From positions 1 to 43,714 of the IMG/VR virus record IMGVR_UViG_3300044971_002300: 43,714 nt of DNA. The stretch is one strand, 5' to 3'. This DNA comes from a virus. Below the pieces are notes generated by a model. It ran no database searches and was not told the origin of the DNA. It worked only from the letters and a program-made list of their open reading frames with translations. Position 1 is the first letter of the stretch. The number at the start of each line of letters is the position of its first letter. The position numbers and the translations under genes are program-made. Of the stretch, positions 1,458 to 36,132 are shown piece after piece.

Positions 1458-4096
1458 CCAGCCAAAATCAGCAAGCTCTTCGTCCGGGAGAAATCAATCT
1501 CGGATACATTCCCATCGATTGGCCCTTAACACCCCTGGGTGCAAAGAAAGATCCGTATGTGAATGGCTGGCAGAACAAGCCTTTTAGCGTTCGTGAAATT
1601 GAAGAAGAGATCGTAACTGGCAACTGTAAGGCCATTGGATTGCTGGGTGGTCCGGTCTATAACCATCCCTATGGTTTGGTTTGGGTTGATATTGATGGCC
1701 CTAGCGTCTACACACTTGTTAAACAGCTGTCGGATCAGGAGGATTTTGATGTTGCACTGCCTCCCACGCTGACTATCTGCAGTGGTAAGGCGGGTCGTGA
1801 ACGGAAACTCTACAAGCTAAGCCGAGAAAAACAAAAACATTTTGCACGAAACAAATACACCTGGCACGCTGAGACCAACAAGGAGAAACTTGAGATCCTT
1901 TGGTCTAAGCACCAGGGCGTGCTGATGGGTCTGCACCCTGAAACCGAAGGCTATTACACAGCTGAAGGGATGGGTTTTGAGTGGGTGGAACGCCTGCCTG
2001 AATTTCCGGAATGGCTTCTTAATCTCATCGTTAATAAGAACGTTCGTCAGGGTACACCTGCGAAAGAACGCACTCGGATCGTTGGTCCTGGTTTTGCTAT
2101 CAACGCTGAGATCTCGCTAGAGCGGGACATGAAACTGGCGACAGAAGCAATGTGGGCTCTGCCGCCAGATGCCGCTGATGATTACGACATTTGGATCACT
2201 ATCGGCCAAACGCTTCACAGCTTGGATGAATCTCTGCTTGATAGCTGGGATGAATGGTCCAAGCAGTCAGAGAAGTACAAGGAAGGTGAGTGCCACAGGC
2301 GGTGGCGTTCCTTCTCCAAGAACGGTGGTCGCGGCCTGGGATCTCTTATTCACATTGCCCAGGAGCATGGGTGGAAGCCTTCCCAGGAGCACCGTGCGTT
2401 GAATGTTGATGATGAGACATTAAATCACGTTTCGAAGCTACTTGCTGAAATTGAAGAGGATTTACTGATGGCACCGGAATTACTTGAGGAAACCAAGTCT
2501 CCAACTCAAACTGAACCAGTGTGGAAGAAGCGGCAAACACGGGCGCCTCAAGAGAAATCAGGAAAAGACCAACGGTCAAGAAACCCTTCATCGAACGTAG
2601 TTACCGACGTTGTGCTCGACCTGTATAAGGGGGATCTGCTCTTTAGTCAACCCCATAACCAGTTCTTCCTGTATCAGAAGGAAGCACCTGGTCTGTGGTC
2701 GCCTTTAACCAAGATCGAAATCCTTGGTGACATCCGTAACAAACTGCAAATGTTAGGTGACTTCCTGCCTAACGGTTTCAGTATCAACTTGATGAACGAT
2801 GTCTGCACTCAGCTGCAGTCGGTTCTTGCCTTTGAAGATTGGTATGACAACAGCGAGCTGCTGCTGTTCACCAATGGTGTGCTGAATGTTCAGACCAGGG
2901 AGCTGCTTCCCTTTGGCCGGGAGCTTCACCTGACCCAACTGATGCCGTATCCCTATGACCCGGCAGCCACCTGTGAAGAAATTGTTAAATGGCTGAAAAG
3001 TACACAGCATGACAGCTGGGAACGTACTCAGGTTCTGCGGGCCTGGTTGCGGGCCACACTCCTGGGTCGTTATGAGATCCAGAAGTTTGTGGAAATCGTG
3101 GGTCCGGGTAAGTCGGGTAAATCCACCTACGCAAACCTGGCGGTAGCACTGGTGGGTAAGAGCAATACTTACTCAACGGACTTCGAGAATATGGAGAAGA
3201 ACCGTTTTGAAGCTGCCGCCTACATGGGTAAAAAGCTTCTGCTGTTCCAGGATGCTGATCGTTGGGGTGGTTCTGTCTCCAGGTTGAAGGCCATCACTGG
3301 AAGTGACTGGATCCGTAGCGAACGTAAGTATCAAGGTGAAGGTCTGGATCCTTTCCAGTACCACGGTGTTGTGATGATCACCGCCAACGAAGCAATTCAG
3401 TCCACTGACTACACCTCTGGTCTTGCCCGTCGTCGCCTCACCATTCCTTTCGACCGTCCGTTCACGGGCGGGCCGAATGAACAAAAAGAATTAATTAAGT
3501 TCAATTCCAAGGGTGAGCCCCAAGGTGTGTTCTCCCCTCTGCTGCCAGGACTGGTGAACTGGCTGCTGGATATGAGTGAGGAGGAGATGCGTGAGTACCT
3601 GATGGAAACTTCGAAGAAGGTGAAGTTCTTCAAGAAGTACGAGAAGATGCAGAACCTCCGGTCCAACCCCCTGTTGGATTGGATGGAGCACAAGATCATC
3701 TACGACCCAGGCATCAGCTCAGCTGTTGGTTTCACGAAGAATGCACCGATGGGTTCTTCACATATCTATGCCAACCAGGACAAGTGGTTGTACGCAAGTT
3801 ATGCAGAGTTCTGTCGCCAGTGCAATGTGGGCATCATGTCGCGTAACCGATTTGAACCCCTCTTCCTGGACATCTGCAAACACCAGCTCAAGATCAACGT
3901 CTACCCCTTACGCAATACCAGGGGGATGCGGGTGGTAAATGTGGCTGTCCGTGAGTCCAGTCCTAAATATGAAGATTGGCCTTCCGTTGTTGAGGTGTCT
4001 GCAGACAAAGATAAATACAAAGAATTTTATGGGATGTCACTGGAAGCAAACCTGGATGCGACAATGGAAGATGAGTTGGAAATAGTCGATGTCTAA
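1454..4096 (+). CDS. Primase-polymerase / D5-like SF3 helicase
   Basis: This 880-residue replication protein joins several domains. The N-terminal half has a prim-pol-like region with VDIDG (residues about 77-81). A PriCT-2-like segment follows at about 215-290, with DYDIWITIGQTL and RWRSF. A D5-N-like region follows (LLFTNGVLNVQTREL). The C-terminal superfamily 3 helicase has Walker A GPGKSGKST near 548, Walker B KKLLLFQDAD near 595, motif C GVVMITANE near 640 and arginine finger LARRR near 658. It would unwind and prime phage DNA at an origin. It overlaps the preceding gene by 4 nt and speD by 8 nt. The helicase assignment is secure; the prim-pol assignment is somewhat less so. Confidence 0.9.
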   Translation: MTSQNQQALRPGEINLGYIPIDWPLTPLGAKKDPYVNGWQNKPFSVREIEEEIVTGNCKAIGLLGGPVYNHPYGLVWVDIDGPSVYTLVKQLSDQEDFDVALPPTLTICSGKAGRERKLYKLSREKQKHFARNKYTWHAETNKEKLEILWSKHQGVLMGLHPETEGYYTAEGMGFEWVERLPEFPEWLLNLIVNKNVRQGTPAKERTRIVGPGFAINAEISLERDMKLATEAMWALPPDAADDYDIWITIGQTLHSLDESLLDSWDEWSKQSEKYKEGECHRRWRSFSKNGGRGLGSLIHIAQEHGWKPSQEHRALNVDDETLNHVSKLLAEIEEDLLMAPELLEETKSPTQTEPVWKKRQTRAPQEKSGKDQRSRNPSSNVVTDVVLDLYKGDLLFSQPHNQFFLYQKEAPGLWSPLTKIEILGDIRNKLQMLGDFLPNGFSINLMNDVCTQLQSVLAFEDWYDNSELLLFTNGVLNVQTRELLPFGRELHLTQLMPYPYDPAATCEEIVKWLKSTQHDSWERTQVLRAWLRATLLGRYEIQKFVEIVGPGKSGKSTYANLAVALVGKSNTYSTDFENMEKNRFEAAAYMGKKLLLFQDADRWGGSVSRLKAITGSDWIRSERKYQGEGLDPFQYHGVVMITANEAIQSTDYTSGLARRRLTIPFDRPFTGGPNEQKELIKFNSKGEPQGVFSPLLPGLVNWLLDMSEEEMREYLMETSKKVKFFKKYEKMQNLRSNPLLDWMEHKIIYDPGISSAVGFTKNAPMGSSHIYANQDKWLYASYAEFCRQCNVGIMSRNRFEPLFLDICKHQLKINVYPLRNTRGMRVVNVAVRESSPKYEDWPSVVEVSADKDKYKEFYGMSLEANLDATMEDELEIVDV

Positions 4097-4445
4097 TGGG
4101 CGTCACCTAATTTTAGATTTGTATGAGTGTGATCCAGAGGTTTTGGACGACTACGACAGGTTGTCTGAACTTCTGGAGGCTGCCCTTTTGATGTCGAAAG
4201 CCACAATCCTTCGCATCATTGGCGAGAAATTTGAGCCGCAGGGCGTAACGCTACTGGCGCTCCTGGCTGAGTCTCATGCGTCTATTCATACCTGGCCTGA
4301 GCTTGGGTACGCCGCCATCGACCTCTATACCTGCGGGGATACCACCAACACGCACAAGGCTGCTGACTTCCTGAAGTACAAGCTCAAGTCCCAGAAGGCA
4401 GAGGAACAGGAGCTGGTGCGCTCAACGGCGCCTCCTGAAGCCTGA
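4089..4445 (+). CDS. speD: S-adenosylmethionine decarboxylase proenzyme (SpeD)
   Basis: A 118-residue class 1 bacterial-type AdoMet decarboxylase. The processing site is the E61-S62 bond in LLAESHASIHTWPE; S62 would become the pyruvoyl cofactor. His67 and Cys82 (LYTCG) match the catalytic residues of the Thermotoga enzyme, offset by one. The enzyme makes decarboxylated AdoMet for spermidine synthesis. It overlaps the primase-helicase by 8 nt and is followed directly by a terminator, so it is the last gene of the replication operon. Length and motifs indicate an intact proenzyme. Viral polyamine genes are auxiliary metabolic genes; the benefit to the phage is inferred. Confidence 0.93.
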   Translation: MSNGRHLILDLYECDPEVLDDYDRLSELLEAALLMSKATILRIIGEKFEPQGVTLLALLAESHASIHTWPELGYAAIDLYTCGDTTNTHKAADFLKYKLKSQKAEEQELVRSTAPPEA

Positions 4446-8324: not shown

Positions 8325-8486
8325 TTAGTTTGGCAACGCCTGGAACCAAAACACGATTCCATTATTAGCTTCAACCCATTCTCGTGTTTTGTATGCGTCA
8401 TTCCTTTCTAGGGTGGCGCATTTTCTTTCTTTGTCTAATTCCCAGCACATATTCACCCGGATCTTGGGCTCCTTATTGCGTTTCAT
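8325..8486 (-). CDS. Small protein downstream of the lysin, unknown function
   Basis: A 53-residue protein from an ATG that overlaps the lysin stop (ATGA), so it is translationally coupled to the lysin. It is charged and Trp/Cys-containing (VNMCWELDKERKCATLERND, then REWVEANNGIVFWFQALPN). No membrane segment. It ends one base from the convergent plus-strand gene, so nothing is left noncoding here. It could be a lysis regulator, but there is no direct evidence. Confidence 0.6.
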   Translation of the reverse strand: MKRNKEPKIRVNMCWELDKERKCATLERNDAYKTREWVEANNGIVFWFQALPN

Positions 8487-9589
8487 TTAGATACCAAAAT
8501 TGCCCAGCCTGTATTTTTTCCTTCACATTCCCAGCGAGGAAGCCAATTCTTGCGGCTATAACGCACAGCTTTTCCTGATGACTTGCTGTGGATTACATAA
8601 CCACCGTTGACCATATCGGCTTCTCCGTTGGGGTCATTATGGACAAACGCATCTGGCGTAAATCCAATGCAGCAGGTCCAGTGACCAAATCCAGACGGAT
8701 TCTTTGAGGTCCCTTGGTGCAGCCACCCAACAGCTACGGGGCGACCATTGCGAATTTCATTTTCTAATAACGCATAATTACCGTTAGTTATAAAACGTGC
8801 CTGAAGACCCAGGGATCTCAAGGCTGCAATTTGAACATCTTTGTCGGTGGTATCGCCATAACGTGCGCGAATTTTATTGTATTCATCGTCATTCTTCACC
8901 TTTCCATAGTACTCAGCGATCATGGCACAAGTACTTGAGAAACACTCGCGATAACCCCGCTGAGATTGGTTGTCGAGCTGGTATTCATATGGTACGTTTA
9001 AAATCTTTTCATTGACAACATCCTTTTGCTCTCCTCCAGGACGTTGAAGTTTTTGATCTAAGATCTGGATTAATTTAGTACTGTACGCTGGGTCAGTTGC
9101 ATAACCCTCTTTTACCAATAACTCCGCACATTCATTTCTATTCTTAGCACGATTTACTCCCTTGAAATTTTTATAGTCCTTGTACCAACGATCTACCAAA
9201 TACGTAATGCACGTTTCAATATCAGGAAAGTCAAGAAACCCATCCTTGATTGTTATCCATTTGCCGTTAATAAATTCTTGTGTGCTAACAGTAGAGCCTC
9301 CCCCCTTTAAACCTAAAACATTGTTTTTACCTGACATATGTTTTCCCCAACCTGACTCTAAGGCCCACTGTGCACAAACGCATTCAGGAAATACGGCTCC
9401 AGCTTCTTTAGCGGCTGCGTATACACCATCCCAATTATTGTTGTCTACTTGTGGCTTGGTCTTACGATATTTCTTGGCAAATTCATCCAGGACATCAGAA
9501 GAAAGCTGGGACTGCAACCAATTCCATGCTTCAATCTGATGAGGTAATTCTTCGTAATACTTAGCCGCGTCCGTTAGTTTGATTGACAT
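8483..9589 (-). CDS. Two-domain lysin: glucosaminidase plus C39-like peptidase
   Basis: A 368-residue protein with two catalytic modules. Residues about 50-160 match glucosaminidase (FlgJ/LytD-like, cutting the glycan strand), with catalytic Glu in QWALESGWGKHMSGKNN. Residues about 198-365 match peptidase C39_2-like enzymes. ECFSSTCAMI puts the nucleophile at about Cys214, aligned to the usual CGPT..AM, with His in GHWTCCIGF near 302 and Asp/Asn in VHNDPNG near 318. The protein could cut both glycan and peptide bonds of peptidoglycan. No signal peptide, so release would need a holin, or it acts as a virion enzyme. It overlaps the upstream glycosyltransferase by 29 nt. Confidence 0.85.
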   Translation of the reverse strand: MSIKLTDAAKYYEELPHQIEAWNWLQSQLSSDVLDEFAKKYRKTKPQVDNNNWDGVYAAAKEAGAVFPECVCAQWALESGWGKHMSGKNNVLGLKGGGSTVSTQEFINGKWITIKDGFLDFPDIETCITYLVDRWYKDYKNFKGVNRAKNRNECAELLVKEGYATDPAYSTKLIQILDQKLQRPGGEQKDVVNEKILNVPYEYQLDNQSQRGYRECFSSTCAMIAEYYGKVKNDDEYNKIRARYGDTTDKDVQIAALRSLGLQARFITNGNYALLENEIRNGRPVAVGWLHQGTSKNPSGFGHWTCCIGFTPDAFVHNDPNGEADMVNGGYVIHSKSSGKAVRYSRKNWLPRWECEGKNTGWAILVSK

Positions 9590-21227: not shown

Positions 21228-21881
21228 CTAGCTGGCGAATAAAGTTTCAAGTCCTTGATCGTCAACCAACCCCCAGGGATCTTCGTCTACCTTAAACGAA
21301 TTTGCAAACTCTGCAAGGGCGTAAGGATTGATTTTTTCTTCAAGCTCTCTGATGGCCCTAACTTGATGTGGTGCAGCACTATAGTTTCGAAACGCCTTAA
21401 GCAGTACCTCTGTGGATACCCAGGGATTTGCATCAATCTCACGCAAGAACAGTTCAACCTCCTCCCTGCGCCTATCGATCAAACCACCAATAACTCGATG
21501 GTTTTCATCAAAGATCCAGTGCGAGATTTCTTCTGCAACGCCAGCCCAGTCCTCATCATTTAAGCAGTCAATGACATTGCTATAGAGAAAAGGTTTCCAT
21601 CCAATTGAATGGACAAAAGAAATTAAAGCCTGCTCAGAAGGCTCGTTTAAATGTAAGTTTAAATCCTTCAGTAAATTCTTGATTGCTTTTACTTCACAAC
21701 TCAAGTACTCAAGTGCTTTTTCTTTGGTGCACCATTGACCTTGTTTTACCGGAGAACCATCTGGGTAAAACTGAGTCCCATAGCCAATGGTGTAACGTCC
21801 TTCCTCGTCAGAAAGGAAAGCTTTCTCATTAAAGCCTTCGTATTTACGAATAAGAGCAACCGCTTCTCGCAAATCTGACAT
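21228..21881 (-). CDS. GH24 lysozyme (T4-type muramidase)
   Basis: A 217-residue phage lysozyme. Glu15 in IRKYEGFNEKAF is the expected acid catalyst, followed by DEEGRYTIGYGTQFYPDG with the conserved T-x-GYG. GGLIDRRREEVELFL near residue 140 is the late GH24 motif. It would cut the MurNAc-GlcNAc bonds of the host wall. About 60 residues beyond the catalytic domain are unassigned. No signal peptide or membrane anchor, so a holin would be needed. A perfect 8-bp hairpin abuts the start codon, which may control translation. Confidence 0.9.
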   Translation of the reverse strand: MSDLREAVALIRKYEGFNEKAFLSDEEGRYTIGYGTQFYPDGSPVKQGQWCTKEKALEYLSCEVKAIKNLLKDLNLHLNEPSEQALISFVHSIGWKPFLYSNVIDCLNDEDWAGVAEEISHWIFDENHRVIGGLIDRRREEVELFLREIDANPWVSTEVLLKAFRNYSAAPHQVRAIRELEEKINPYALAEFANSFKVDEDPWGLVDDQGLETLFAS

Positions 21882-30977: not shown

Positions 30978-32347
30978 TGGACGCTTCTCCTGCCCTGGAG
31001 TTTCTGAAGCTGGCTGTAAGCAAGACCGGGATTCTGTTGAGCCCACTGCATCAGGACTTCTGGTGACATTCCGGTCGCACCACCTAACTCCATCAGTTGC
31101 CGTTGCAACTCTCCCGTCTGCTCCATACTCCTACCCAGTTGCTGCTGGCCCTCATAGAAGGAAGGAAGGGGGACACTTGTAGGAGCAGGGTACTGCTGAG
31201 CAGCATTAAGTACTTCTTGAGAGAGTGCGCGGTTTTGAACATTTTGACGTAGTGCGGGAACACCGGCCCCGTTAGACACCCTTGTCCCACCGTATGTGGG
31301 TCCACCAGGGAACGAACCACCAATGGGTACATCCGAGGCAATGGGTGTCTGCTGTCCGGCTTGTGCTCCAGGTTGACTAACACCTTGAGGAGGTGTCAGC
31401 ACAGGAGCAGGAGGTGGTGAATAACCACCAGGAGCTGGCGGCGGGGTGCCACCAACTGGATTCTGCCCCATTCCTTGATATTGCGCAAATCGAAATGTCC
31501 GATCCCTCGCACCGCTGTAATCAGGTGCAAGCTCCCCTGGATTCACGACAGGGCGATTTTGAATCGAAGTAACGCGTGGATCTTTTCGTGGGTCATACAC
31601 CAAGCCCCTGTCGGCCAGCATTTGAGTCAATCCTTGACCAGCTTGAATCATTGGTGTTGGGTCAGATAAAGCCCAAGCCGCGCCACCAAGGGCTCCAGGT
31701 AAGGCTACGGAACCACGCAACCCAGTCGCACCACCTGGGGAAAGGTTCTGAAGTAAGCTGCCGACTTGACCAAAATTAACGCCACCGCCACCACCGGCTA
31801 AAGCACGCGCTGCTTTTTCAGAGGTACCACCAAACTGTTTAAGAAACTCACGGCGTAAGGCCGGATCCCGCATGAATGGGCCACCAAAACCTGTTGGGCT
31901 AACCAAGGCCCCTTGAAGGCCTGTTGCTACCTGCCGAGCAGATTGGATGGCATCACCAATAACAGGGGCCTTGAGGGCGCCAGTGGCGTACTGTTGTACG
32001 CTTCGGGCAAGCTGGGGACCAGCGCCTGCTGCTTCTTGGATGGCACGATTCACCATACCAGCCTGAGCAGAGCGCTGTAGACCAGCTGGCATCCCAGCAA
32101 CGTCACTAATTAAACCAGTGAAACGAGCCGGAATATTGCCAAAATTTGGGCCAGCGAACTGAGAAGGTAGTCCACGTTGCAGGACATTCTCAGCCTGCGC
32201 AGCAAGAGAACGATAGGTCTGTGGGTTGGTAACCGTATCGGCAACCTGCTTCAGCGCCTTAGGTGCAGCTTTGGCGCCAAACCCTTGAACAGCTTTCAGG
32301 GCTGCTGGACCACCACGCATGAACAGCTGAAGAAATGCGTTACCCAT
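30974..32347 (-). CDS. Ala/Gly/Pro-rich structural protein, possibly ejected
   Basis: A 457-residue protein from ATG 32347 (TAATG overlap). The first ~240 residues are helical and Ala/Gly-rich (RGGPAALKAVQGFGAKAAPK). Then comes a Pro/Gly linker (GGTPPPAPGGYSPPPAPVL), and a Gln-rich C-terminus (GRSMEQTGELQRQLMELGG). The composition resembles internal ejection proteins of podovirus-like phages. It is coupled to the muramidase, which fits an entry machine. No domain-level homology recognised. Confidence 0.65.
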   Translation of the reverse strand: MGNAFLQLFMRGGPAALKAVQGFGAKAAPKALKQVADTVTNPQTYRSLAAQAENVLQRGLPSQFAGPNFGNIPARFTGLISDVAGMPAGLQRSAQAGMVNRAIQEAAGAGPQLARSVQQYATGALKAPVIGDAIQSARQVATGLQGALVSPTGFGGPFMRDPALRREFLKQFGGTSEKAARALAGGGGGVNFGQVGSLLQNLSPGGATGLRGSVALPGALGGAAWALSDPTPMIQAGQGLTQMLADRGLVYDPRKDPRVTSIQNRPVVNPGELAPDYSGARDRTFRFAQYQGMGQNPVGGTPPPAPGGYSPPPAPVLTPPQGVSQPGAQAGQQTPIASDVPIGGSFPGGPTYGGTRVSNGAGVPALRQNVQNRALSQEVLNAAQQYPAPTSVPLPSFYEGQQQLGRSMEQTGELQRQLMELGGATGMSPEVLMQWAQQNPGLAYSQLQKLQGRRSVQ

Positions 32348-32808
32348 TACCGCCAAACCTCATGAAGATAAATACGAGAACCCACTGCAGTGTCAGCTGG
32401 GCCAGGTAAAGCCTGAATAAATTCCGCGCCTGAACGCTCATATCGATAGCGAGCTTGGAATGGATCCTTGTAGTTGGGAACGTAAAGAATATTGGCTAAA
32501 CGATTGGTTTCGTAAAGGTAAACTTCGTTCCAAACTTTAAGAGCTTCCTGGGCATTGCTCGACCGAATGGTACGATCAACGTCGCCAAGGATGCTCTCCA
32601 ATCGGGTGGAAGGAGAAGTGGCAACCTCTGTTTTCTTTTCAGCCGTATCACAACGGCCGATCTGAATAATAATCTTGTCGTAAAAATAGGAATCAGGCAC
32701 GGTATTCATGGCCTCTTCCAGGCGAGCGTAATCGCCAGCCGGAACGGAAACCGTGAAATAGCCCAGGTGATACCTGACTCTACTTTTATCGAAGTCAGAT
32801 AGCTGCAC
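32347..32808 (-). CDS. Hypothetical virion-module protein (neck/connector candidate)
   Basis: A 153-residue protein with a GTG start and GGAAGG upstream. Reads RVRYHLGYFTVSVPAGDYAR at the N-terminus, then FYDKIIIQIGRCDTAEKK and a helical middle (AQEALKVWNEVYLYETNRLA). The size and early position after capsid genes fit a head-tail connector, but this is inference. A TATAATTAAT box lies 28 nt upstream. Confidence 0.6.
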   Translation of the reverse strand: MQLSDFDKSRVRYHLGYFTVSVPAGDYARLEEAMNTVPDSYFYDKIIIQIGRCDTAEKKTEVATSPSTRLESILGDVDRTIRSSNAQEALKVWNEVYLYETNRLANILYVPNYKDPFQARYRYERSGAEFIQALPGPADTAVGSRIYLHEVWR

Positions 32809-32851: not shown

Positions 32852-33598
32852 TCAGAGTCCAAAGAATTGGTTGGTGGCAAACTTTTGACCCTGGAGATAG
32901 GGCTCGCTATCCATGAACTGACCAAGAAAGTTTTTAGGACTTAAAGCTTGCTGCATCATTCCACCAACCAGGCCCTCCTTTAATTGTTCCATCATTGTTT
33001 TGGGTTTTTCTTTCTCACCCAAAACGCTAATCAGAGCTTCAATCAGCTGGCCTTGTTGTGTTTTATTGGCAACCTCATTTTGAACAAACGCCTGGGCCAA
33101 TAAAGCAGATGTATTGAAATCAGTGTTTAACGGTGCATCATTCTTGCGTGTTGTAGCCGCTTGAGGAAGCTCGCTTAAATGAAAAGTTTGAAGTTCATAG
33201 GGACCAGTGCGCAACACAGATACATTGCCCGCAGCACCCTGTCCTGAATGTGTTGATACTGAACCTTGACCTAAAAAACGCAAAGAAGTTCCTTCAGGAA
33301 ATGCATAATCCTCACCACGGTGATATGTGGATGCTCCCGCTGTTGGTGCGGTTCTTTTCCCCATGGGGCTGGTAATCTGCGTTCCAGGATTCAAAGCAAA
33401 GCCTTGTTTCTCGGGGCTGTAAATAGACTGCCATTCTTCTTTTCCTGGCAGCCGAAACTGCAAATATTGGCCAATATCTTTACGTGCAATTGAAAGAGGG
33501 ATTTCTTTCCCGTCTTTAGTGAGAGTAAAGTGCGCATGAGGGCCAGTAGAAACACCTGTGGATCCTACTTTTCCTTTAAATAAAGCTGGACCGGCCAT
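32852..33598 (-). CDS. M23-like peptidase with motifs in permuted order
   Basis: A 248-residue protein with the hallmarks of LytM/M23 zinc endopeptidases in swapped order. GSTGVSTGPHAHF (His21, His23), normally near the C-terminus of the domain, is at the N-terminus. SPMGKR...YHRGEDYAFPEG (His93, Asp97), normally first, follows, and FHLSEL (His140, the usual Y-x-HLS site) comes after it. All zinc and catalytic ligands are therefore present, as in a circular permutant. The last 100 residues are helical and Gln/Met-rich (VGGMMQQALSPKNFLGQF). It would cut peptidoglycan cross-links, probably from the virion. A terminator and a TAGAAT box precede it. Confidence 0.75.
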   Translation of the reverse strand: MAGPALFKGKVGSTGVSTGPHAHFTLTKDGKEIPLSIARKDIGQYLQFRLPGKEEWQSIYSPEKQGFALNPGTQITSPMGKRTAPTAGASTYHRGEDYAFPEGTSLRFLGQGSVSTHSGQGAAGNVSVLRTGPYELQTFHLSELPQAATTRKNDAPLNTDFNTSALLAQAFVQNEVANKTQQGQLIEALISVLGEKEKPKTMMEQLKEGLVGGMMQQALSPKNFLGQFMDSEPYLQGQKFATNQFFGL

Positions 33599-33623
33599 AT
33601 TCTTTTTCTTTTTATTCTAAAAC

Positions 33624-33650
33624 TAAAAAACCCCTGGAATCCCAGGGGTT
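33624..33650 (-). terminator. Rho-independent terminator, minus strand
   Basis: AACCCCTGG (33629-33637) and CCAGGGGTT (33642-33650) form a 9-bp stem with a 4-nt loop. On the minus strand it is followed by six Ts. It separates the capsid cluster from the M23 gene. Confidence 0.9.
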
Positions 33651-33670: not shown

Positions 33671-34099
33671 TTATACGCGAATCAGATCAGCTGCTAAAAC
33701 CGCATCCCAGTCCACACGTTTGATCTGCCTGAGTTGCTCTAAGTTGTTGAACCGTTCACCCGATAAGGACATTTGAAGGTCTTTGATTTCTCGGGCAGTT
33801 TTAAGGCCAATACCCTTAATATGATCAGCGATCATTTGAGCGGTGGCCGTATTGATGTTCAACCGCGTTTCAGGAGGGAAAGAGCGAGGCTCTTCCTGTG
33901 CAGCTTTGTCTTTAATCTGAAGAGTTTTTACTTTCTTCGTTGCCGCTTCATCAGGGATGAGTTCAGTTTTGTAAGCGGTATAAAGGCGACCGTCCTGATC
34001 TTCGACCATGAACCAGTCGCCGTTATCCCATTCACTAACTACTTTTACCCTTGCACCTGTTTTTTTGTGCTGGTAAAGAATGGCGGCAGTTGTTGTCAT
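33671..34099 (-). CDS. Helix-hairpin-helix (ComEA-like) DNA-binding protein
   Basis: A 142-residue protein. An N-terminal SH3-like/KOW-like beta stretch (KKTGARVKVVSEWDNGDWFM) precedes a C-terminal ComEA-type helix-hairpin-helix: LNINTATAQMIADHIKGIGL, KTAREIKDLQ, and FNNLEQLRQIKRV. HhH units bind DNA backbones without sequence specificity. It lies between the capsid cluster and a terminator, so it may contact packaged DNA or act at the portal. Its ATG directly follows a hairpin. Confidence 0.75.
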   Translation of the reverse strand: MTTTAAILYQHKKTGARVKVVSEWDNGDWFMVEDQDGRLYTAYKTELIPDEAATKKVKTLQIKDKAAQEEPRSFPPETRLNINTATAQMIADHIKGIGLKTAREIKDLQMSLSGERFNNLEQLRQIKRVDWDAVLAADLIRV

Positions 34100-34965: not shown

Positions 34966-36132
34966 TCAAACGTCGCCGTCATCAGACACGAAGCTGAAGG
35001 CGGTGGTCACGAAGTCCTTGTTGAGGATCTCGAAGCCAGCGTACAGCTGCCAGATCAGAATGATAAAGCGGCTGAAGTCGTCGTTGTTGTTGATCAGCAC
35101 CTGAGCGTTCGGGCCGCCGATACCCACGCCAATGGCTTGAGGACCGAAGAAGTAACCCTGAGCAACTTCTTGAGAAGTGTAAGAACCGCCGGTACCAGCA
35201 AAGGAAGCGGTGATGTTCTTGGTCGGGAAGTTGGTCGACTCGAAGAACTTGACGCCTTCAAACTGCACGCCAGTAGGCATCACAGGTTCACCAGCCAGGA
35301 AGTAACCTTGACCAGCCTGGGGACCCATGTAGAAGCTGGCGTTGTTAGGCATCATGGGGTTGCCCATGTACATGCCTTGGCCAGGGTTACCAGCGTAACG
35401 AGCGATCTCACGGAAGTCAGGATCACGACGCAGGTGCATCATGAAAGTAGGATCGCAGATGCAGCGATACAGACCATCAGAGAAGGTCGGCACGTTGCGC
35501 TTACGCAGATCCTTAACAACGTTCAGGAGGTCAGTACGCACGGAGAACTGCTGAACGTCAGCGGTGTACTCAGTGCCGGTGTAGGTGATCTGACCGGAAG
35601 CGTTCTTGGTCTTACCACCAGGGAAGTAGTAACCGCCTTGGGTGGTAGATGCAGCACCATTGGCTTCGGCTTTGGCGAGTTCATCAATGAACACGCGGTC
35701 GCGCCAACGGCGATAGTCATCAAGCAGCGTCAGGCTACCGATGGACTGGTGGAACATGTTCAGGTTGCCCGTGTCCAGCAGAAGGCGCTGGGCTGTGATC
35801 AGGGTCTCACGAGCAATCTTGAAGGTCGAAGGCTGGGTCGGGTCGCCCGGATCCGCAGGGCCGGTGTATTCCTTAAGCACCACCAGGACTTTCTCCTTGG
35901 TGATGTTGCGGCTGTTGGCAGTACCGATAGTCTGGTCAGCGATACGCTCCCGGCTATCCTTGGTACCAGGGGTACCCCAGAACTTGTAGCGGTCTAACTG
36001 AACGGTTTGACCGGGTTGACGAGTGAAGTCGTGGACAACCACGGGCTCCACTGCCATTTCGGCAATGTAAGCAGGGTGGGGACGATAAAGTTCCGCACCA
36101 AGGATTTTTGGAAAATCGTTATCAATGAACAC
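34966..36132 (-). CDS. Major capsid protein
   Basis: A 388-residue protein with a GTG start and GGAGG 10 nt upstream. It looks like an HK97-fold coat protein of the P22/N4-gp56-like group: an early TVQLDRYKFWG segment, KIARETLITAQRLLLDTGNL helix, RNVPTFSDGLYRCICDPTFM near residue 220, GVQFEGVKFFESTNFPTKN near 295, and IILIWQLYAGFEILNKDF at the end. C/G-ending codons dominate. It lies after the portal and scaffold candidate, as in many phages. No protease is apparent nearby. Confidence 0.85.
   Translation of the reverse strand: MFIDNDFPKILGAELYRPHPAYIAEMAVEPVVVHDFTRQPGQTVQLDRYKFWGTPGTKDSRERIADQTIGTANSRNITKEKVLVVLKEYTGPADPGDPTQPSTFKIARETLITAQRLLLDTGNLNMFHQSIGSLTLLDDYRRWRDRVFIDELAKAEANGAASTTQGGYYFPGGKTKNASGQITYTGTEYTADVQQFSVRTDLLNVVKDLRKRNVPTFSDGLYRCICDPTFMMHLRRDPDFREIARYAGNPGQGMYMGNPMMPNNASFYMGPQAGQGYFLAGEPVMPTGVQFEGVKFFESTNFPTKNITASFAGTGGSYTSQEVAQGYFFGPQAIGVGIGGPNAQVLINNNDDFSRFIILIWQLYAGFEILNKDFVTTAFSFVSDDGDV

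Follow-up and report, generated by a model that had tools for sequence, protein, structure and literature searches.

A circularly permuted M23/LytM peptidase, predicted to be virion-borne, in S-EIV1-like phages

The peptidase locus

The window analysed here is the whole of a 43,714-nucleotide stretch of viral DNA (IMG/VR record IMGVR_UViG_3300044971_002300), which belongs to the S-EIV1-like phages (cyanophage). A sequence-only reading had proposed that positions 32852-33598 encode an M23 peptidase with its zinc-binding motifs in circularly permuted order. Translation bears out the reading frame and the motif positions and places the gene on the minus strand, running from the ATG at 33598 to 32852 and encoding 248 residues; a reading-frame check of the plus strand over 32852-33598 gave no open frame. 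The features of the window that are discussed are as follows.

8483-9589, minus strand: two-domain protein, glucosaminidase then C39-like peptidase, with glycosyltransferase genes close by
21228..21881, minus strand: separate Phage_lysozyme gene (PF00959, E 2e-20)
32347..32808, minus strand: phrog_29158 (function unknown), downstream neighbour, 86-97% identical in most relatives
32852..33598, minus strand: circularly permuted M23 peptidase gene, 248 residues with a C-terminal tail (open reading frame, two reversed Pfam M23 stretches, about 100 viral contigs)
32855..33148, minus strand: C-terminal tail, residues 151-248, low-confidence predicted helices (pLDDT about 50; tail and domain exchange)
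33170..33376, minus strand: M23 N-terminal segment (ITSPMGKR...HRGED...FHLS), residues 75-143, with predicted zinc ligands His93 and Asp97 and catalytic His140 (Pfam M23 profile 2-54)
33377..33499, minus strand: linker from the old C-terminus to the old N-terminus, residues 34-74 (between the two Pfam stretches; pLDDT about 96)
33500..33574, minus strand: M23 C-terminal segment GKVGSTGVSTGPHAHFTLTKDGKEI, residues 9-33, with His21 (catalytic) and His23 (zinc ligand), both predicted (Pfam M23 profile 70-94)
33629..33650, minus strand: intrinsic terminator that separates the upstream gene from the peptidase gene (9-pair stem, then a T run)
33671..34099, minus strand: helix-hairpin-helix (HhH, ComEA-like) protein of 142 residues, upstream neighbour (partial TIGR00426 match; synteny)
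34966..36132, minus strand: major head protein (phrog_1357, E 1.9e-17)

In the encoded chain, the C-terminal M23 segment (GSTGVSTGPHAHF) comes first and the N-terminal segment (HRGED ... FHLS) afterwards. The stretch G-S-T-G-V-S-T-G-P-H-A-H-F occupies residues 12-24, H-R-G-E-D residues 93-97 and F-H-L-S residues 139-142. Instead of the linear order HxxxD, HLS, HxH, the order is HxH, HxxxD, HLS. All M23 ligands that the sequence-only reading had listed as present (H93, D97, H23, H140 and H21) are indeed found, both in the translation and in the family.

That reading would have fallen if a normal M23 domain preceded residue 1 in relatives, and this has been ruled out by in-frame stops and a terminator. 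The first scan gave 46 loci, and in 45 of them an in-frame stop lies 2-26 codons upstream of the conserved N-terminus, the remaining one being truncated by the contig end. L046, where the tblastn match started within the protein, is among the 45, and its complete N-terminus was read. In the window, the gene starts past the terminator and an AT-rich leader, and the isolate S-EIV1 has the same permuted gene layout. The leader (TTTTAGAATAAAAAGAAAAAGA, 33601-33622, minus strand) abuts the start codon; it is unique within the window, and similar leaders stand upstream of most relatives.

Reversed matches to M23 profiles and structures

The Pfam profile PF01551 matches the 248-residue protein in two stretches (E 5.9e-7) with a summed score of 30 bits, above the curated cut-off of 28.7. 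Searching the two halves separately put residues 1-42 on profile positions 70-94 (E 7e-4) and residues 43-149 on positions 2-54 of the 96 (E 0.019). Positions 55-69, the turn from the HLS strand to the GQxIG strand, are missing from the permuted protein. The same reversal is observed with phmmer against PDB entry 3slu (E 2.2e-10), in which query residues 62-148 match chain residues 213-302 and query residues 9-38 match chain residues 312-342. In hhalign comparisons with 12 canonical M23 domains, the first half of the permuted family aligns to columns 101-135 (probability 97) and the second half to columns 13-86 (probability 99). Two partial M23 matches in reversed order were the outcome that a permuted domain predicted. 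Judged by these matches, the reversed motif order exceeds chance, and the window protein is a permuted relative of M23 rather than a standard PF01551 member. For annotation this matters, since the M23 profile sees two weak halves and misses 28 of the 55 family members at E 0.01.

Conservation of the permuted order

About 100 viral contigs share the permuted order and fall into two clades: HxH, which includes the window, and HLD, which includes S-EIV1 and has Asp as the last zinc ligand. The HxH-clade members L035 and L037 likewise have Asp. Among 55 family members, with identity down to 24%, no substitution occurs at H21, H93, D97 or H140, and the residue at position 23 is His in 25, Asp in 30 and nothing else. 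The length of the linker (residues 34-74) differs between the clades. Where dN/dS could be estimated, it is 0.03-0.14, synonymous sites being saturated in two of the window comparisons; these ratios indicate that the permuted domain is under strong purifying selection. Together, the reversed order, the conserved ligands and the purifying selection support the permuted-domain reading.

The Asp form is also observed in M23 proteins of Pelagibacteraceae (L161-L163, L166), which have the canonical order and carry STGAHLD, Asp replacing the third zinc ligand His. Therefore, the Asp form is not peculiar to permutants.

Predicted structure

AlphaFold2, run with 55 sequences, predicts residues 1-150 as one domain (pLDDT about 95) with strands at the motif positions expected for M23, and residues 151-248, the tail, with low confidence. 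An AlphaFold model of the HLD clade has confidence much like that of the window protein. Foldseek searches of the PDB with both models gave no credible match, to M23 or to any other fold. A permuted domain is penalised in Foldseek because the program aligns in chain order; this penalty may account for the absent M23 match, as an explanation and not as proof. Of the structural expectation raised from the sequence, one confident domain across both halves therefore stood, while the likeness to a known M23 structure did not appear in Foldseek against the PDB.

Against the viral models of BFVD, the best Foldseek match is A0A510E7V3_3 (E 1.3e-6, 167 columns). The S-TIM5 virion structural protein H6WFX6, whose model was independently predicted, is matched with E 0.028, probability 1.0 and 155 columns. 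A0A510E7V3_3 and A0A6J7X0C8_2, another Foldseek match in BFVD, lie in large viral proteins and may be further permuted M23 domains.

An exchange slot beside the head genes

In most S-EIV1-like contigs, the gene order is MCP, 34135 homologue, HhH, peptidase and phrog_29158. The HhH neighbour is 82-98% identical in most relatives and 42% at the lowest, in the deepest branch. HhH and phrog_29158 are mostly 82-97% identical to their counterparts in the window, and peptidase identity to the window protein drops to 28-80%. In a deeper branch (L132-L138, L140, L143), phrog_29158 comes before the peptidase and all genes are more diverged. In the S-EIV1 record KJ410740 (L048:3181-4407), the major head protein appears to be mis-annotated, as its frame matches continuously over 3256-4404, the first part lying under a minus-strand CDS.

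The position of the peptidase is occupied across S-EIV1-like phages by an HxH-type, an HLD-type or an M15-like enzyme. The M15-like domain is found at L139:3427-4113, L141:3512-4267 and L142:3626-4312, with the same tail as the permuted M23 protein of S-EIV1; in L139 and L142 the tail is 82% identical to that of S-EIV1 over 82 residues, with no similarity between the domains. L046 combines an HLD domain 77% identical to that of S-EIV1 with a tail 60% identical to that of the window protein. Tails are thus 60-82% identical across differing enzyme types, and these mismatches indicate that enzyme and tail recombine as modules. On this comparative evidence, the locus is an exchange slot for either of two permuted clades or an M15-like domain. 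The M15-like label is based on motifs only (GYHPxGMAIDV(R) ... HDTHVHL); searches of Pfam, NCBIfam and the PDB gave no match, and the tblastn matches, to cyanophage genes that carry a lysozyme or endolysin annotation, were weak.

Permuted M23 domains in other phages

Permuted domains have also been observed outside the S-EIV1-like phages. Virion structural proteins of S-TIM5-like cyanomyoviruses, about 1000 residues long, contain a permuted HLH-type M23 domain (L154:6128-9121, L159:893-3949, L282, L283). For S-TIM5 (H6WFX6) and S-TIM66 the permuted motif order was read from the sequence, and it is shared by two IMG/VR relatives. By eye, the S-TIM5 virion protein looks lysozyme-like at its C-terminus.

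A permuted HLD-type domain lies within tape-measure or tail proteins, mostly of 800-1700 residues, of Moraxella phages (Mcat18-23) and Acinetobacter Vieuvirus-type phages, at the following loci.

L147, L148, L160, L167-L169, L175-L251: tape-measure permuted HLD-type loci of Acinetobacter and Moraxella phages

One scan of IMG/VR gave 364 relatives. Among the 80 retained, the complete permuted order is present in 79, and a canonical arrangement in the same frame in none. In profile comparisons, the tape-measure and cyanophage families are collinear in permuted order over 114-116 columns, and the S-TIM group aligns more weakly. By motif order and profile comparison, three phage groups that are unrelated to one another carry the same reordered enzyme in their virion proteins.

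A tree built from 38 permuted domains and 29 canonical ones needs three order changes, but the alternative in which all permuted domains form one clade survives the AU test (p = 0.075); the tree is based on 119 columns and has long branches. An alignment spanning all permuted groups was too diverse for scanning. A scan of cellular genome contigs with the window family gave no relatives. Other candidates proved canonical: the cellular matches of the Moraxella domain (Pelagibacteraceae M23 only), the one match in a scan of 398 genomes, the cyanobacterial plasmid matches, which seemed permuted by query range and were canonical when the sequence was read, and the M23 domains checked in phages S-PM2, ACG-2014f, PaV-LD, phiPsal1, Floof, JanetJ and MW202640.

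A possible, though doubtful, generalisation is that M23 permutation is a recurrent phage-specific solution with more than one origin in virion proteins (S-EIV1-like cyanophages, Acinetobacter/Moraxella tape measures and Aurunvirus virion proteins). Relocated chain ends would perhaps allow the enzyme's tethering, threading or release through the virion, the active site staying free.

Proposed function

The window protein is quite probably a circularly permuted M23/LytM zinc peptidase, which would work at entry as an active, virion-associated peptidoglycan endopeptidase; its zinc binding, catalytic activity, substrate and place in the virion, together with what the tail does, are predictions. 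In this reading, the loop that leads from the 'HLS' strand to the 'GQxIGxxGxTG' strand is where the chain has been opened, which puts the HxH strand first, and the old C- and N-termini are joined by the linker of about 40 residues. The active site would be rebuilt in space, with zinc on His93, Asp97 and His23, the last of which is Asp in the sister clade, and His21 and His140 would activate water to cut peptidoglycan peptide cross-links. The C-terminal tail of about 95 residues would anchor the enzyme within the virion or on its surface, the gene lying between head genes, and action would then take place at entry. Phages exchange the slot as a cassette, presumably to suit the host cell wall.

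M23 domains can be catalytically dead, as in LytM factors, and it is conceivable, if rather unlikely, that the permuted domain is real yet non-enzymatic and binds peptidoglycan or another virion protein. This would fit the Asp at the third zinc ligand in more than half of the family and in the tape-measure copies, which are also HLD. However, the catalytic positions are all invariant, and His and Asp, the only residues at the third ligand, are both able to bind zinc. Canonical Pelagibacteraceae M23 proteins end in STGAHLD as well, and the probable M15-like enzyme in the same slot elsewhere argues for hydrolysis.

To a similar degree, it is improbable that the protein works as an endolysin, lysing the host when infection ends. 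M23 domains do occur in endolysins, and most of the best PHROG matches carry the label 'endolysin', but the gene lies among head genes near the MCP, and the other permuted copies found sit in tape-measure or annotated virion structural proteins. In addition, the genome has the separate Phage_lysozyme gene, which is the likelier endolysin, and the glucosaminidase/C39 protein. The location among head genes, the separate lysozyme and the virion and tape-measure relatives are the basis for predicting a virion-borne enzyme.

A common way for circular permutation to arise is duplication with later loss of the outer halves, and the reversed order might be a leftover of two tandem M23 domains decayed to half each, with no single functional domain. 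This is very hard to reconcile with strong purifying selection on exactly one full, invariant ligand set, with one confident predicted domain across both halves, and with the persistence of the order across about 100 contigs and across phage groups that are unrelated. A start-site, frameshift or assembly artefact concealing a normal upstream M23 domain, for which nothing in favour was found, is refuted by the upstream stops, the terminator and the identical S-EIV1 layout, and its likelihood is negligible.

Comparison with known systems

Few cell-wall enzymes are as well studied as the M23 peptidases. A search of the open-access literature found no description of a permuted M23 domain, and 'permut' is absent from the text of an M23 review (PMC9662197). 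As far as found, a permuted M23 has apparently not been described before; in the literature searched, circular permutation appears only for the unrelated NlpC/P60 fold. The natural permutant indicates that the M23 fold can accommodate new termini in the loop that follows the HLS strand, and it bears on how phages mount cell-wall enzymes on virions. The S-EIV1-like slot, with near-fixed neighbours and a swapped enzyme, offers a natural experiment on the fit between peptidase and host wall.

In permuted NlpC/P60 families (LRAT-like, YaeF/G6R), the catalytic residues are in permuted order (PMC6403190); these also have a cell-wall hydrolase fold but are cysteine peptidases unrelated to M23. The JanetJ tape measure and S-PM2 p210, tail- or virion-type proteins of tailed phages, resemble the proposed virion enzyme in carrying an M23 domain, but their motif order is canonical. 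A close counterpart comes from S-EIV1, an isolate of the same phage lineage: its 'peptidase M23 family' protein AHV82231 (KJ410740) shares the locus and the permuted layout, although the record makes no mention of the permutation. It differs from the window protein by Asp for His at the third ligand (GAHLD) and is 33% identical in the matched part. With the canonical M23/LytM endopeptidases (PF01551; NMB0315 3SLU, Csd3 4RNY, ShyA, LytM), the window protein has in common both conserved segments and the zinc and catalytic residues of HxxxD, HLS and HxH; it differs from them in that the segments are reversed, the stretch of profile positions 55-69 is absent and a linker joins the old termini.
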